NCBI GenBank assembly: GCA_027483445.1 | Contig: JAIXUS010000069.1 | Location: 62,001 to 126,000 of the forward strand | Source: Bacteroidota bacterium | GTDB taxonomy: Bacteria > Bacteroidota > Bacteroidia > M30B66 | Reading direction: 5' to 3' | Length of the DNA: 64,000 nucleotides | Shown: one piece after another, positions 20,997-62,401 of the stretch | How the letters are laid out: each line of letters opens with the position of its first letter | Numbering within the stretch: position 1 is the stretch's first letter | The notes under the pieces: model-generated | Told to the model about the DNA's origin: nothing | Seen by the model: only the letters and a program-made list of their open reading frames with translations | Database searches by the model: none | Made by a program: the position numbers and the translations under genes

Positions 20997-22241
20997 ATGA
21001 ACCTAAACGAAGTCAAAAATCGATTTGGAATCATTGGCAACGCAGCCTTGCTCGACCGGGCCATTGATACCGCATGGAGGGTTGCCGGAACCGACTTAAG
21101 CGTTCTTATCACCGGTGAAAGTGGTACCGGTAAAGAGGTGTTTTCAAAGCTTATCCACAGCTATTCGGCACGGAAGCACGGAAGCTTTATTGCGGTGAAC
21201 TGCGGGGCCATACCTGAAGGAACGATCGATTCAGAGCTTTTCGGACATGAAAAAGGCTCGTTTACCGGGGCCAATGAAGCGCGAAAAGGGTATTTTGAAG
21301 TCGTAAATGGGGGAACCATCTTTTTAGATGAGGTAGCCGAACTGCCCTTGCAAACACAAGTTCGCCTACTCCGGGTTTTGGAAACTGGGGAATTTCTTCG
21401 GGTTGGATCGTCGAAACAACAAAAAACCGATGTGCGCATTGTGGCGGCCACTAACGTGAACATTCCCGATGCCATTGAAAAAGGGAAATTCCGCGAAGAC
21501 CTTTACTACCGGCTCAATACAGTTCCCATTCAAATTCCGGCCTTGAGAGAGCGTGGCAACGACATCTTATTGTTGTTTCGAAAGTTCGCCTCCGACTTTG
21601 CGGAAAAATACCGAATGCCGGCCATTCGACTAGACGAATCAGCGACCCAGCTCTTGCTAAGCTACCGATGGCCGGGCAATGTTCGTCAACTTAAAAACGT
21701 TACTGAGCAGATTTCAATCATTGAAAACGAACGTATGATTGGGGCTGAAGTGCTCAGCAGATACTTGCCCGGGCATGGAAGCAGTATGATTCCCGCCTTG
21801 AGCCGGCCCGATCAACAGGCCGAACTTTCGGAACGGGAAATCCTGTACAAAGTATTGTTCGACATGAAGCGCGATATGGTAGAGGTGAAGAAAATACTTG
21901 CTGAGGTAATCGGCGGACAGAGCAACGATATGCACATCCGAGAAAATCACGCGCAGTTCTTTTCTCAGCTTCAGCAAGATTTACAGCCCGGTTCATTCGT
22001 CGCCCAACCGGTGGTAAGTCCTGTTTCACAACCGGTTTCTTTTGTAAGCCCGGTTTCTTCGCCCATTACCGAGCATGAAGAGCTGGAAGAAGAGAGCCTG
22101 TCGTTGGAAGATCGTGAAAAAGAACTCATCATTAAAGCGCTCGAAAAATATCGGGGTCGAAGGAAGAACGCCTCGCGCGAGCTGGGCATATCAGAACGCA
22201 CCCTGTATCGCAAAATCAAGGAATACGATATAAACTTGTAG
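20997..22241 (+). CDS. Sigma-54-dependent transcriptional activator lacking a receiver domain
   Basis: 414 aa, ATG start 2 bp after the miaB stop. The AAA+ domain has Walker A GESGTGKE (40-47), the sigma-54 contact loop GSFTGA (87-92, Ser in place of the usual Ala), Walker B GGTIFLDE (105-112), and YRWPGNVRQLKN. There is only about 20 residues before the AAA+ core, so no receiver, GAF or PAS input is present. Between about 285 and 375 is a poorly conserved linker. The C-terminal Fis-type HTH is RKNASRELGISERTLYRKIKEY (383-410, shown here only in part as ELGISERTLYRKI). It would activate sigma-54 promoters; a sequence of that type lies upstream of groES. The activating signal is unknown. Confidence 0.92.
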   Translation: MNLNEVKNRFGIIGNAALLDRAIDTAWRVAGTDLSVLITGESGTGKEVFSKLIHSYSARKHGSFIAVNCGAIPEGTIDSELFGHEKGSFTGANEARKGYFEVVNGGTIFLDEVAELPLQTQVRLLRVLETGEFLRVGSSKQQKTDVRIVAATNVNIPDAIEKGKFREDLYYRLNTVPIQIPALRERGNDILLLFRKFASDFAEKYRMPAIRLDESATQLLLSYRWPGNVRQLKNVTEQISIIENERMIGAEVLSRYLPGHGSSMIPALSRPDQQAELSEREILYKVLFDMKRDMVEVKKILAEVIGGQSNDMHIRENHAQFFSQLQQDLQPGSFVAQPVVSPVSQPVSFVSPVSSPITEHEELEEESLSLEDREKELIIKALEKYRGRRKNASRELGISERTLYRKIKEYDINL

Positions 22242-22245
22242 CTAG

Positions 22246-22752
22246 ATGGCCTTTCTTCTCCGACAATGGCCGGGCATCCTGATGCTCAGTGCACTGCTGT
22301 TGCTTACGGCGTGTCGAATCTCTTTGAACGCCGGAGATGCGGGGAATGCCAAAACCATTAGCATTGCCTTTTTCCCCAACAACGCCAGTTTAGTTCAGCC
22401 AACACTCAGCCAGGCATTTACAGAAGATTTGAGAAACTTTTTTCAAACCCAAAGCCGTTTAACGCTGGTGCCCCAGGGTGGCGATTTACGCATTGAAGGC
22501 TCAATTACAGACTACCGCGTGAATCCGGTTGGTGTAAGCACGGGTGGAGCGCAGTCGAACCGACTAACCATTACCGTAATGGTTCAGTTTACAAACACAT
22601 TGGACGCCGAAAAGGATTTCGAAACCAGTTTTAGTCGATTCGCAGACTTTCCGTCTTCCAGCAACCTAACATCTGTTGAAACCGAGCTGATTCGGGAGAT
22701 AAACCAACAGCTGGCCCAGGACATTTTTAACAAAGCTTTGATTAATTGGTGA
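22246..22752 (+). CDS. lptE: LPS assembly lipoprotein LptE
   Basis: 168 aa. Lipoprotein signal peptide with lipobox LLTAC (Cys23). The mature part follows the Bacteroidota LptE pattern: KTISIAFFPNNASLVQPTLSQAFTEDLRNF, then an Asp/Gly turn and SITDYRVNPVG. LptE plugs and assists the LptD barrel that delivers lipopolysaccharide to the outer leaflet. It lies 4 bp after the sigma-54 activator and overlaps the next gene by one base. The same gene order is common in Flavobacteriales, supporting the assignment despite low sequence conservation. Confidence 0.85.
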   Translation: MAFLLRQWPGILMLSALLLLTACRISLNAGDAGNAKTISIAFFPNNASLVQPTLSQAFTEDLRNFFQTQSRLTLVPQGGDLRIEGSITDYRVNPVGVSTGGAQSNRLTITVMVQFTNTLDAEKDFETSFSRFADFPSSSNLTSVETELIREINQQLAQDIFNKALINW

Positions 22753-23798
22753 TGAACGCGGACTCCATCGTGTCGATGCTGCTGAACTTAAACCAGGAAT
22801 CGGGGCTAAAACCCGAAGATGGCGAGGCTTTACTCCAGCGCTATCCTTATTTTGAAGCCGGACGATTTGCATTGCTTCTCAAGCTTCGCGAACAAGGCGA
22901 CTATCGCTTTCAGGAGCAACTCAAACTGGCCGCGGTGCATTGTTCCGATCGAAAAGCCCTCTATCACTTCGTGGAGCGCGAATCCGATGAACATCAGGTT
23001 AATCGCTCTTCTCAGGCTGTTGTAGAAACTTTGGCCGCCTCCCCGGCGGATGACCTCAGCGTAACCGAAGCCCCGCAATCTCTGGTGAATCAACTCCAGC
23101 CTGAGTCGACGGAAGTGGAATTGGTTAACGTTGAATTTACAGGTGACGGACTGTCATCAACCCCAAAACCTGAAGAACAACCGGCCAAGGAGGCACCTGA
23201 AGTTTTACCGCCGCCCACAAATACACCACCCATCGATAGCGCCGTTCGTGTGGAGGCCGTTAAAATACCACTGGTAAACACGCCAGCACAGCGTAAGCCA
23301 AGGATTAACTGGAATCCGGACCAGGCCATCGAGGCTCCGAATGATATTTTGTCGCAAATTTTGGCCTACCCGGAACTGGGAAAAAGTGGTGTAGAAAACA
23401 GCGAATCCACAATTATTCAGGAAGAATCGCCTGAAATCTCCGAGCATCCCGAGAAAAAACAGACGGCAGAACCACGGCGCTTCACGGACTGGCTCAAGAC
23501 GACGAAGTCTGCGGGTGTTTTCCCAAAAGCATCAACGCCCTCTGTGGAAAAAGTGGTCGAAAAGCCACAACAGGAAGAAAAATCAACCCCTAAAGCCAGC
23601 TTCTTTAATCCTGTAGAAATGGCCCGCAAAAGCGTAGAGGACCGCGACGATTTTGTAACAGAAACCTTGGCGAAAGTGTATTTAAACCAGGGTGATACGA
23701 CCCGTGCAATACGCATCTACCATAAATTAAGTTTGTTATATCCTGAAAAAAGTGCTTACTTTGCCGCCCTTGTTGAAAAAATTGTAAAACCGAGCTAA
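22752..23798 (+). CDS. Conserved Bacteroidota protein with C-terminal TPR-like helices
   Basis: 348 aa from the ATG at 22752, overlapping the lptE stop (TGATG). The N-terminal about 80 residues are helical (LLNLNQESGLKPEDGEALL, YFEAGRFALLLKLREQ). The middle (about 90-280) is Pro/Glu/Ser-rich and probably disordered. The end (about 295-348) has a TPR-like helical pair (LAKVYLNQGDTTRAIRIYHK). No signal peptide is present, so it should be cytoplasmic. It is regularly found between lptE and secG in this phylum; the function is not known. Confidence 0.8.
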   Translation: MNADSIVSMLLNLNQESGLKPEDGEALLQRYPYFEAGRFALLLKLREQGDYRFQEQLKLAAVHCSDRKALYHFVERESDEHQVNRSSQAVVETLAASPADDLSVTEAPQSLVNQLQPESTEVELVNVEFTGDGLSSTPKPEEQPAKEAPEVLPPPTNTPPIDSAVRVEAVKIPLVNTPAQRKPRINWNPDQAIEAPNDILSQILAYPELGKSGVENSESTIIQEESPEISEHPEKKQTAEPRRFTDWLKTTKSAGVFPKASTPSVEKVVEKPQQEEKSTPKASFFNPVEMARKSVEDRDDFVTETLAKVYLNQGDTTRAIRIYHKLSLLYPEKSAYFAALVEKIVKPS

Positions 23799-23803
23799 GT
23801 CCC

Positions 23804-24157
23804 ATGTCTTTAATCTTTTCGATTCTCATTTTAGTTGTTTGCGCGCTACTTATTTTGATTGTTCTTGTTCAGAACTCCAAGGGTGGCGGATTGTCATCGA
23901 CCTTTGCATCCTCCAATCAAGTGATGGGTGTTAGAAAGACTGCTGATTTTTTGGAGAAGTCTACCTGGGTTTTAGCCGCAGCCTTGATTGTTTTGTGTTT
24001 AGCATCTACAGCCAGTACAATGACGCCCGAGGATTCAAGCCGCGAAACCATTTCGACGCGCAAAGCAGAAGAAGGAGGCACTTCGGCCCCTGCGCCTGCC
24101 GCTAAACCGACTACTGCTCCTGCTCCGGCTCCAGCTCCAGCAGCACCGGCGCAATAA
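23804..24157 (+). CDS. secG: Protein translocase subunit SecG
   Basis: 117 aa. Two transmembrane helices (about 3-23 and 50-70) flank the SecG signature VLVQNSKGGGLSSTF and the loop SSNQVMGVRKTADFLEK. A C-terminal Ala/Pro/Thr-rich tail of about 45 residues is a common addition in Bacteroidota. SecG assists SecYE in Sec export. It is the last gene of the miaB operon and is followed by a terminator. Confidence 0.94.
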   Translation: MSLIFSILILVVCALLILIVLVQNSKGGGLSSTFASSNQVMGVRKTADFLEKSTWVLAAALIVLCLASTASTMTPEDSSRETISTRKAEEGGTSAPAPAAKPTTAPAPAPAPAAPAQ

Positions 24158-24183
24158 AGCATTTTAGGGAATTATCGCCCTTA

Positions 24184-24222
24184 AAACGTGTCAGGCTGAC
24201 AGACAGCCGGGCACGTTTTTTT
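24184..24222 (+). terminator. Terminator after secG
   Basis: An imperfect hairpin pairs AAACGTG and AGGCTG with CAGCC and CACGTTT, followed by a run of seven T. It separates the miaB-secG operon from groES-groEL. Confidence 0.7.
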
Positions 24223-24275
24223 GTTTTTTGGCAGAACCGCTGTCAAAATTTCCAACTTAACTGCGACTGGTACGG

Positions 24276-24293
24276 TTGGCACATCCTTCGCTA
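24276..24293 (+). promoter_or_regulatory. Sigma-54-type promoter sequence upstream of groES
   Basis: TTGGCACATCCTTCGCTA carries the invariant GG (24278-24279) and GC (24290-24291) with exactly ten bases between them and matches most of YTGGCACG-N4-TTGCW (TTCGC replaces TTTGC). A start site about 12 bases past the GC would give a leader of about 33 nt before the groES ATG at 24337. No TAnnTTTG element and no CIRCE inverted repeat were found in this gap. The match is by eye. Confidence 0.45.
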
Positions 24294-24336
24294 ACGGCGG
24301 GCAAAACTCTCAATTCTAATTCAAAACACTTGTAAT

Positions 24337-26270
<1,934 letters not shown>

Positions 26271-60148: not shown

Positions 60149-62401
60149 GTGCGCACCTCTACTCTCCAACTAAAGCCCCTTCTGTTGATCAGCCTCCTTC
60201 AATTAACATCGGTTCTTCTGGGGCAAGTTCCTCAGTTGGCGTGGGCTGAATCAATTGGTGGAGGCGGTGTTTCCGATGCCAGTGTGCTCACCATTGACAG
60301 ATGGGGGAATAGCTATATGGCAGGCACCTTCTCTGCCAGTGGAATCACTTTGGGCTCGGTGTTTTTAAACGGCAGTGGGTCAACAGAAAATGGATTTGTT
60401 GCCAAATTCGATTCCCAGGGCAACACACTTTGGGCGAAAAGGGTACGCCGGGTGGGAGGATTTCAGGATTCTACCAATCCGGATAGAATAGCCATAGACG
60501 ACTCGGGAAATGTTTACCTGTGTGGAGTTTACCTCGACGGTGCGCTCATTGATCTTACTGTACTGCCGGGCGATTTTGGATTCTTTGTGGCAAAGTTCGA
60601 TGAGGCTGGCAATTTCCAATGGGCGAGAACCACACAGTCTCCAGATGGCTTTCAGCCGTATAACAGCATCCATGTCAACAATCAACAAGAGGTGTGTATG
60701 ACGGGATTATACAATAGCACTATCCAATTTTCTGCGGACCAGATCTTAACCAACCCAAATCCCAATGGCATAGCTGGTTTTATTGTGAAATATGATGGTG
60801 ATGGAAACGTGGTCAACGCGGTGGACCTTGGTGTAAGCAATTTTGATTTTGAACCGTGGGCTCCCTACCCCACTGAATATTTTCGATATGATTTGTCAGA
60901 CCATATTTATCGTTTTGTAGAAGCAACGCGAACCTTAATGAAATATGATGGTAACGGCGTGTTATTGACTTCCCAGACATTTAATGTGGGCGAGACTATT
61001 TCTTTCGTTGATATGGCTATTAGTGCTCAAGAAGAGGTTTATCTGGCCGGCAATTTTATAGCTACCCTCCAATTTGAAAACGTAGAAATCACTGTTCCCA
61101 ATCCATCGGGGTGGGACTTCAGAGGCTTTGTGGTTAAAATCAATGATGATGGGCTTGCGCAATTGATGTACTCAACGCCAACTGGAAGTGCTCATCAGAT
61201 TAGAAAAATCGAGACCGATAGTATAGAAAATCTCTATGTCTTAGGAGCCGTTGGCACACTAGGTCTCCTGCATGTTTCGGTAACAAAACTGAATAGCTCA
61301 GGAAGTTTGCTTTGGCAGGAACAAATCTTTCCTACAGACATCACCAACAATATCGTGGGCGACATCGCTCCGCGCAATCTCGTTCAAGCACAGAATGGTG
61401 GAAATGTTTTTATTACCGGCACATACCGCAATTTTATTCGTTTCAATGAGTCCGTTAATTTTAGTACCACAGGAAACGTATGGAGAATTTTTCTAGCCCA
61501 GTACGGTCTTTGCGACATGGCCAAACCAGAGATTATTACGGCCGACTCTGCGCTTTGTCCCGGTGAAAGTGTTCAGATTTCGCCAACGACCGAGGGTCAC
61601 TTTTTATGGTCAACCGGCGACACTACAACAATACTGGAGGCCAATGTTGCCGGCGATTATTTTGCTTTCGCAGTTGACAGCCTGGGCTGTTATGCCGCAT
61701 CGAATATTGTAAGCATAACAGAACATCCTGTACCAGAACCACCCTCCATAGAAGCATCTTCTCTTTCATTTTGCGCGGGTTCGGGGGTTACAATTGCATC
61801 CAATGAAAATGAAAATAATATTTGGTCAACTGGTGAAGTTGGCGATTCTATTTTCGTTAGCAGTACAGGGTTTTATTTTGTTCAGACAGTGAACGAATTC
61901 GGGTGTTCATCCATGTCGGATGTCATCCTAATCTCAGAAAACCCGCTTCCTAATAATGCAATAGCGTTAACAGGAATAACACTTTCTGCGCAGGAAGAAA
62001 ACAGCAGTTATCAGTGGATTAATTGTGATGAAAACAATGCTCAAATTGAAGGCGCAATATTCCAAAGTTTTATGCCCTTGCAGAATGGCTCATATGCGGT
62101 TCAGGTGACTAATAATTTTGGGTGTACAGTTACAAGCGAATGTCTTCCGGTTGTAGTAACAAGTACGGAACCATTGAATACAACATCAGCATGGAGCATT
62201 TATCCTAATCCGGCTCATGAATATTTCATTGTGAATTCTGGCTTTGATCCAGTGCAAACAACAGTTTTAACGATTGATGGCAAGGTGGTATTTAATTCGA
62301 ATAGTCGGCATATAGATATTGAGCATCTTGCTTCTGGGATTTACTTTGTTAACATTCAATCGGATAAGGAACAAAAGATGGTTCGATTGGCTGTCGAATA
62401 G
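60149..62401 (+). CDS. Secreted beta-propeller-like repeat protein with Ig-like domains and type A T9SS sorting domain
   Basis: 750 aa from a GTG (60149), which gives a signal peptide (about 1-24, ending LLGQ). Residues about 30-450 have SBBP-like repeats (ID..GN.Y..GTF, FVAKFD..GN.LWAKR, DDSGNVYLCGVY, FFVAKFDEAGNFQWART). Residues about 455-620 are two Ig-like repeats with the pattern ...SALCPGESVQISP...WSTGDTT... and SFCAGSGVTIAS...WSTGEVGD. The end (about 675-750) is a type A sorting domain (SIYPNPAHEYF, TIDGKVVFN, LASGIYFVNIQ). Surface adhesin or binding protein of unknown target. It lies between two fragments of a DUF4143 ATPase gene. Confidence 0.85.
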   Translation: MRTSTLQLKPLLLISLLQLTSVLLGQVPQLAWAESIGGGGVSDASVLTIDRWGNSYMAGTFSASGITLGSVFLNGSGSTENGFVAKFDSQGNTLWAKRVRRVGGFQDSTNPDRIAIDDSGNVYLCGVYLDGALIDLTVLPGDFGFFVAKFDEAGNFQWARTTQSPDGFQPYNSIHVNNQQEVCMTGLYNSTIQFSADQILTNPNPNGIAGFIVKYDGDGNVVNAVDLGVSNFDFEPWAPYPTEYFRYDLSDHIYRFVEATRTLMKYDGNGVLLTSQTFNVGETISFVDMAISAQEEVYLAGNFIATLQFENVEITVPNPSGWDFRGFVVKINDDGLAQLMYSTPTGSAHQIRKIETDSIENLYVLGAVGTLGLLHVSVTKLNSSGSLLWQEQIFPTDITNNIVGDIAPRNLVQAQNGGNVFITGTYRNFIRFNESVNFSTTGNVWRIFLAQYGLCDMAKPEIITADSALCPGESVQISPTTEGHFLWSTGDTTTILEANVAGDYFAFAVDSLGCYAASNIVSITEHPVPEPPSIEASSLSFCAGSGVTIASNENENNIWSTGEVGDSIFVSSTGFYFVQTVNEFGCSSMSDVILISENPLPNNAIALTGITLSAQEENSSYQWINCDENNAQIEGAIFQSFMPLQNGSYAVQVTNNFGCTVTSECLPVVVTSTEPLNTTSAWSIYPNPAHEYFIVNSGFDPVQTTVLTIDGKVVFNSNSRHIDIEHLASGIYFVNIQSDKEQKMVRLAVE

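Follow-up and report, generated by a model that had tools for sequence, protein, structure and literature searches.

The chaperonin genes groES and groEL of this bacterium raise the question of which sigma factor transcribes them and which regulator controls that transcription. The original prediction, made for the 64,000-nucleotide stretch of DNA analysed here (the window), placed a sigma-54-type promoter in the groES leader and pointed to a sigma-54 activator encoded shortly upstream. The explanation that best fits the comparisons described below, and that is regarded as quite probable, is that groES-groEL would belong to a chaperone regulon of the class Bacteroidia and be expressed from a sigma-54 promoter at 24276-24293, under the control of the activator encoded at 20997-22241, which would act through TGNCAG boxes. 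The features involved are the following.

20997-22241, + strand: predicted sigma-54 activator (bEBP) of 414 aa, from Pfam domains and ortholog alignment
22246-22752, + strand: LptE-family lipoprotein (PF04390)
22752-23798, + strand: protein of no assigned family, without a Pfam or NCBIfam match
23804-24157, + strand: secG (PF03840, TIGR00810)
24183-24219, + strand: terminator-like hairpin with a T tract between secG and groES, from folding, with two boxes inside it
24189-24201, + strand: candidate activator-binding dyad TGTCAG-G-CTGACA, from class-wide box enrichment
24229-24245, + strand: candidate activator-binding dyad TGGCAG-N5-CTGTCA, from the box search
24276-24293, + strand: very likely sigma-54 -24/-12 promoter element TTGGCACATCCTTCGCTA, from the sequence as read, conservation in the order and class, and matrix score
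24337-24615, + strand: groES (PF00166)
24636-26270, + strand: groEL, an ORF named from its sequence

The activator had been described as part of the operon immediately before groES. The cluster formed by the activator gene, lptE, the gene of no assigned family and secG does adjoin groES, but the hairpin lies between the cluster and groES, and the two are therefore probably separate transcription units. The folding energy is -25.9 kcal/mol for 24160-24225 (z -5.24); the hairpin is missing from the list produced by the consensus terminator scan, and the promoter and terminator consensus scan as a whole returned nothing useful at the groES leader.

The element TTGGCACATCCTTCGCTA lies between secG and groES, with 44 bp from its end to the groES ATG. 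The GG occupies 24278-24279 and the GC 24290-24291, which is the gap of exactly 10 bases that had been claimed. In the TGGCAC-N5-TTGC frame the -12 part of the window element reads TCGC, not TTGC, and if the C of the GC is taken as -12 then the spacing predicts a groES transcription start near 24303. The absence of other familiar control elements from the leader also holds: no exact TAnnTTTG occurs in 24158-24336, the nearest words being two with one mismatch at 24216 and 24271, and no CIRCE was seen on reading the leader.

The bare GG-N10-GC pair has 272 and 267 matches on the two strands of the 64-kb window (539 in total), while TGGCAY-N7-GC has 2 on each. Weight-matrix scoring, which had been proposed as a check, was carried out with a matrix of 79 class sites from 33 other families, and it places TTGGCACATCCTTCGCTA third among 127,966 window positions; because the sites were chosen by pattern, the fixed columns of the matrix are not independent evidence. 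Each of ten shuffled 64-kb strands contained between 1 and 6 positions that score equally well, so that the probability of such a match in one leader of this size is about 1%. Considerations of chance are thus weak evidence for a promoter at TTGGCACATCCTTCGCTA, and it is the conservation of the element among relatives that argues strongly, and decisively, for it.

Within the order, GG-N10-G is kept in 10/10 genomes and GG-N10-GC in 8/10. The exact GG-N10-GC pair was dropped as a test of conservation across the class, where it is found in 46/99 groES leaders against a shuffle mean of 17 and maximum of 26; since it is overly strict and also arises too often by chance, it was replaced by TGGCAY-N7-G. 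This pattern is present 20-120 bp before groES in 87/99 leaders from 38 families (shuffle mean 1.44, maximum 5, in 50 shuffles), a count that is post hoc in that the pattern was chosen after the leaders had been inspected, and when evaluated by family mean the figure is 33.5/38. The class count covers 99 of 100 leaders, one (L062) being omitted because its groES start was not found, and excludes the nine leaders from outside the class (L079-L087). The extended form TGGCAY-N7-GC is present in 37/99 leaders, and the base that follows the conserved G, when every family counts equally, is A in 54%, C in 37% and T in 8%. The expected conservation in relatives therefore holds for GG-N10-G: in these leaders the final C of GG-N10-GC is variable and is more often A, and the pair that is conserved ends with the G. 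Half of the 12 class leaders without TGGCAY-N7-G belong to a single family (f3).

Outside the class the usual control of groES is by HrcA and CIRCE, which is absent from the window's leader, and the exact CIRCE word is found in 0/99 class leaders. Among the nine leaders from outside the class, judged by eye, six have a CIRCE or near-CIRCE and three (L082, L086 and L087) have sigma-54-like words. In one class leader (L180, from genome G428) the TGGCAY element is missing and a CIRCE with one mismatch is present, and the assembly has no rpoN match; this is not read as a clean loss, because rpoN occurs in another genome of that genus and the activator has a strong match in G428 itself.

The leaders of dnaK, htpG and grpE provide a partly independent check on the post hoc pattern, and they suggest that the element is shared by a set of chaperone genes. 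In the order, the -24/-12 element TGGCAY-N5-TTG stands just before dnaK in 9/9 leaders examined, before grpE in 7/7 (5 with TGGCAC and 2 with TGGCAG) and before htpG in 6/6 (4 with TGGCAY and 2 with CGGCAY), after removal of one grpE row with the wrong ORF (L112) and three htpG rows, one at a contig end (L129) and two from fragments (L134 and L135). The sigma factor needed to read these promoters, on which the original prediction depended, is encoded in the window's own genome, and rpoN is found in 193/197 genomes of the class. Two of the four genomes without an rpoN match (G414 and G423) keep the groES element, and in these two the missing gene probably reflects an assembly gap. The presence of rpoN, the conservation across the class and the recurrence of the element before dnaK, grpE and htpG all support the promoter that had been proposed, and make it very likely that the element before groES is a sigma-54 promoter.

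Chaperonin control by RpoN had been thought unusual in Bacteroidota, and this expectation is contradicted both by the 87/99 class leaders and by published work. The available portion of a 5'-end sequencing study of Flavobacterium psychrophilum reports a sigma-54 motif, SM4, at groES-groEL, lon, dnaK, grpE-dnaJ, htpG and clpB, the reporter mutagenesis described there having been done on a gliding operon and not on groES (PMC9723704). A 2025 survey, as far as its available text goes, finds sigma-54 promoters enriched before the GroES, GroEL, GrpE, DnaJ and DnaK genes in Bacteroidota (PMC12316311). As judged from the leaders examined, groES is normally under sigma-54 control in the class. Such control of Bacteroidota chaperones is already known; the present analysis adds candidates for the activator and its operators. 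The F. psychrophilum system resembles that of the window in the -24/-12 promoters before groES-groEL, dnaK, grpE-dnaJ and htpG and in the presence of three PF00158 proteins; it differs in belonging to another family, and in the available portion of the paper its authors assign neither an activator nor a binding site (PMC9723704). No assignment of an activator or binding site to these promoters was found in the open-licence literature.

The activator at 20997-22241 consists, according to Pfam, of a PF00158 AAA+ domain with a Walker A motif (residues 12-179), a lid (184-260), a variable linker and a Fis-type HTH (HTH_8, 369-410). Only 11 residues precede the AAA+ domain and no receiver or sensory domain was detected by Pfam, as had been stated. 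The loop reads GSFTGA for GAFTGA, as it does in several relatives; the HTH core LGISERTLYRKI is identical in all 16 full-length sequences aligned, and the linker contains a conserved helix, SERE(I/L)LYKVLFDMK. Matches with an E value of 1e-45 or lower are present in 197/197 class genomes. Most of the best class matches listed are full length, with 55-82% identity, and some families score lower; most of these matches are predicted to be orthologs, those of the lower-scoring families having candidate status. The closest full-length matches outside Bacteroidia, among the matches listed, are 35-42% identical. In the 50 genomes for which both positions were listed, the activator gene precedes groES by at most 6 kb in 32, representing 15/26 families, and the two genes are not neighbours in the other 18. 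The window's own genome encodes three strong PF00158 proteins, of which the 20997-22241 activator alone has an HTH. In two other genomes (G481 and G541) the ortholog is the single strong PF00158 protein, and in G481 it is not beside groES; both genomes keep the groES element and its upstream boxes. By exclusion and by association, it is therefore likely that this activator regulates groES.

The boxes in question are TGTCA/TGACA words upstream of the promoter element. In the 89 of the 99 class leaders that have a site, 208 such words are found against 28 expected (maximum 42); at least one is present in 85/89 leaders and at least two in 67/89, and the relaxed form TGNCAG yields 215 against a shuffle maximum of 36. 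The enrichment extends to dnaK (24 boxes against a maximum of 9) and grpE (9 against 4), each with 50 shuffles, while before htpG the TGTCA boxes only equal the maximum (3 against 3) and the relaxed TGNCAG boxes exceed it (6 against 4). For most boxes the distance upstream of the -24 element is 15-90 bp. A direct repeat TGTCA-N3-TGTCA occurs in 16/89 groES leaders and in 17/111 leaders of all four genes, and the remaining pairs are inverted, with no dominant spacing. Stretches of 119 bp with at least 4 boxes occur in the window at the groES leader and at one other place, 60220-60414, which was rejected as a second dense cluster because it is inside a coding sequence. Because some of the groES boxes also belong to the stem of the secG terminator, terminators may account for some of the count. 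Taken together, the TGNCAG boxes are likely to be the operators of the activator.

The promoter could be of the sigma-54 type while the boxes are used by a different activator or by a separate DNA-binding protein. Candidates for such a role exist, since the genome encodes two more strong PF00158 proteins, both of them response regulators, and the three PF00158 proteins of F. psychrophilum are left unassigned by the authors in the available portion of their paper (PMC9723704); but neither of the two additional proteins has an HTH, one of them has GAFTSA for GAFTGA, and G481 and G541 keep the element and the boxes with the ortholog as their single strong PF00158 protein. This arrangement is accordingly regarded as unlikely. 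Less probable still is transcription of groES by the main sigma factor from a promoter of the TAnnTTTG type, with TTGGCAY serving as some other conserved operator. TAnnTTTG does occur in 18/99 class leaders (shuffle mean 7.4, maximum 14), and in family f3 several leaders have TAcaTTTG right after TTGGCATG. However, most families have a G on the -12 side at the exact spacing (the matrix itself being built on that pattern), and a main-sigma promoter was rejected on the grounds that no exact TAnnTTTG is present in the window's leader and that the available portion of the F. psychrophilum study maps a groESL start with a sigma-54 motif (PMC9723704). A chance match within 180 bp, which had been allowed for, would give TTGGCACATCCTTCGCTA an equally good score in about 1% of single leaders, but it is refuted by the retention of the element in 10/10 order genomes and 87/99 class leaders and need hardly be considered.

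Under the preferred reading, that of sigma-54 transcription with control by the 20997-22241 activator, groES-groEL would be transcribed from the RpoN promoter at 24276-24293, and the regulon of groESL, dnaK, grpE and htpG would be common to most of the class. RpoN holoenzyme would wait as a closed complex on the -24/-12 element, the activator would use its Fis-type HTH to bind the TGNCAG boxes a short way upstream, and the promoter would then be opened by its AAA+ ring. As a guess, the signal might be the release of a bound inhibitor (possibly a chaperone) that acts on the AAA+ domain or on the linker helix SERE(I/L)LYKVLFDMK. More broadly, it seems fairly likely that the chaperones have a single master activator, a receiver-less protein universal in Bacteroidia, which acts through TGNCAG boxes before groESL, dnaK, grpE and htpG and replaces the HrcA/CIRCE control of the sister classes of the phylum. 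Given a candidate box, a candidate gene beside the promoter and two genomes in which one strong activator is present, the way in which the class controls its core chaperones becomes directly testable.

The closest solved structures to the AAA+ domain of the window activator are those of NtrC, FleQ, PspF and others. PspF, the activator of the phage shock operon, likewise consists of an AAA+ domain and an HTH without a sensory domain; the window activator differs from it in that a linker of about 110 aa separates its lid from its HTH and in that its targets, it appears, are chaperones, and its score of 267.8 bits lies below the PspF equivalog cut-off of 443.55 bits. In Bradyrhizobium, the groESL3 chaperonin operon is under the control of NifA and sigma-54. 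That case differs from the present one in that it concerns a single paralog, which is regulated together with nitrogen fixation, and in that the phylum is a distant one.

Several further features of the genome were noted. The terminator-like stem after secG is built of TGTCAG/CTGACA words, here and in several other families, and may be a terminator and a binding site at once. One of the response-regulator sigma-54 activators (L003, G000:C46:214123), which has GAFTSA for GAFTGA and no HTH, is encoded about 9 kb from grpE; the other (L002, G000:C7:3728) has an intact GAFTGA and no DNA-binding domain. A search of the whole genome with the strict pattern YTGGCAY-N5-TNGC was rejected as a means of finding the regulon, as the pattern is not enriched (17 matches against 31 for a reversed control). 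Two of the 17 matches lie outside ORFs, one before groES and one before a lipoprotein gene. The latter (L099, G000:C59:37634) is a second intergenic sigma-54-like site, TTGGCACTTTCCTTGC, located 46 bp before a gene for a lipoprotein of 140 aa.
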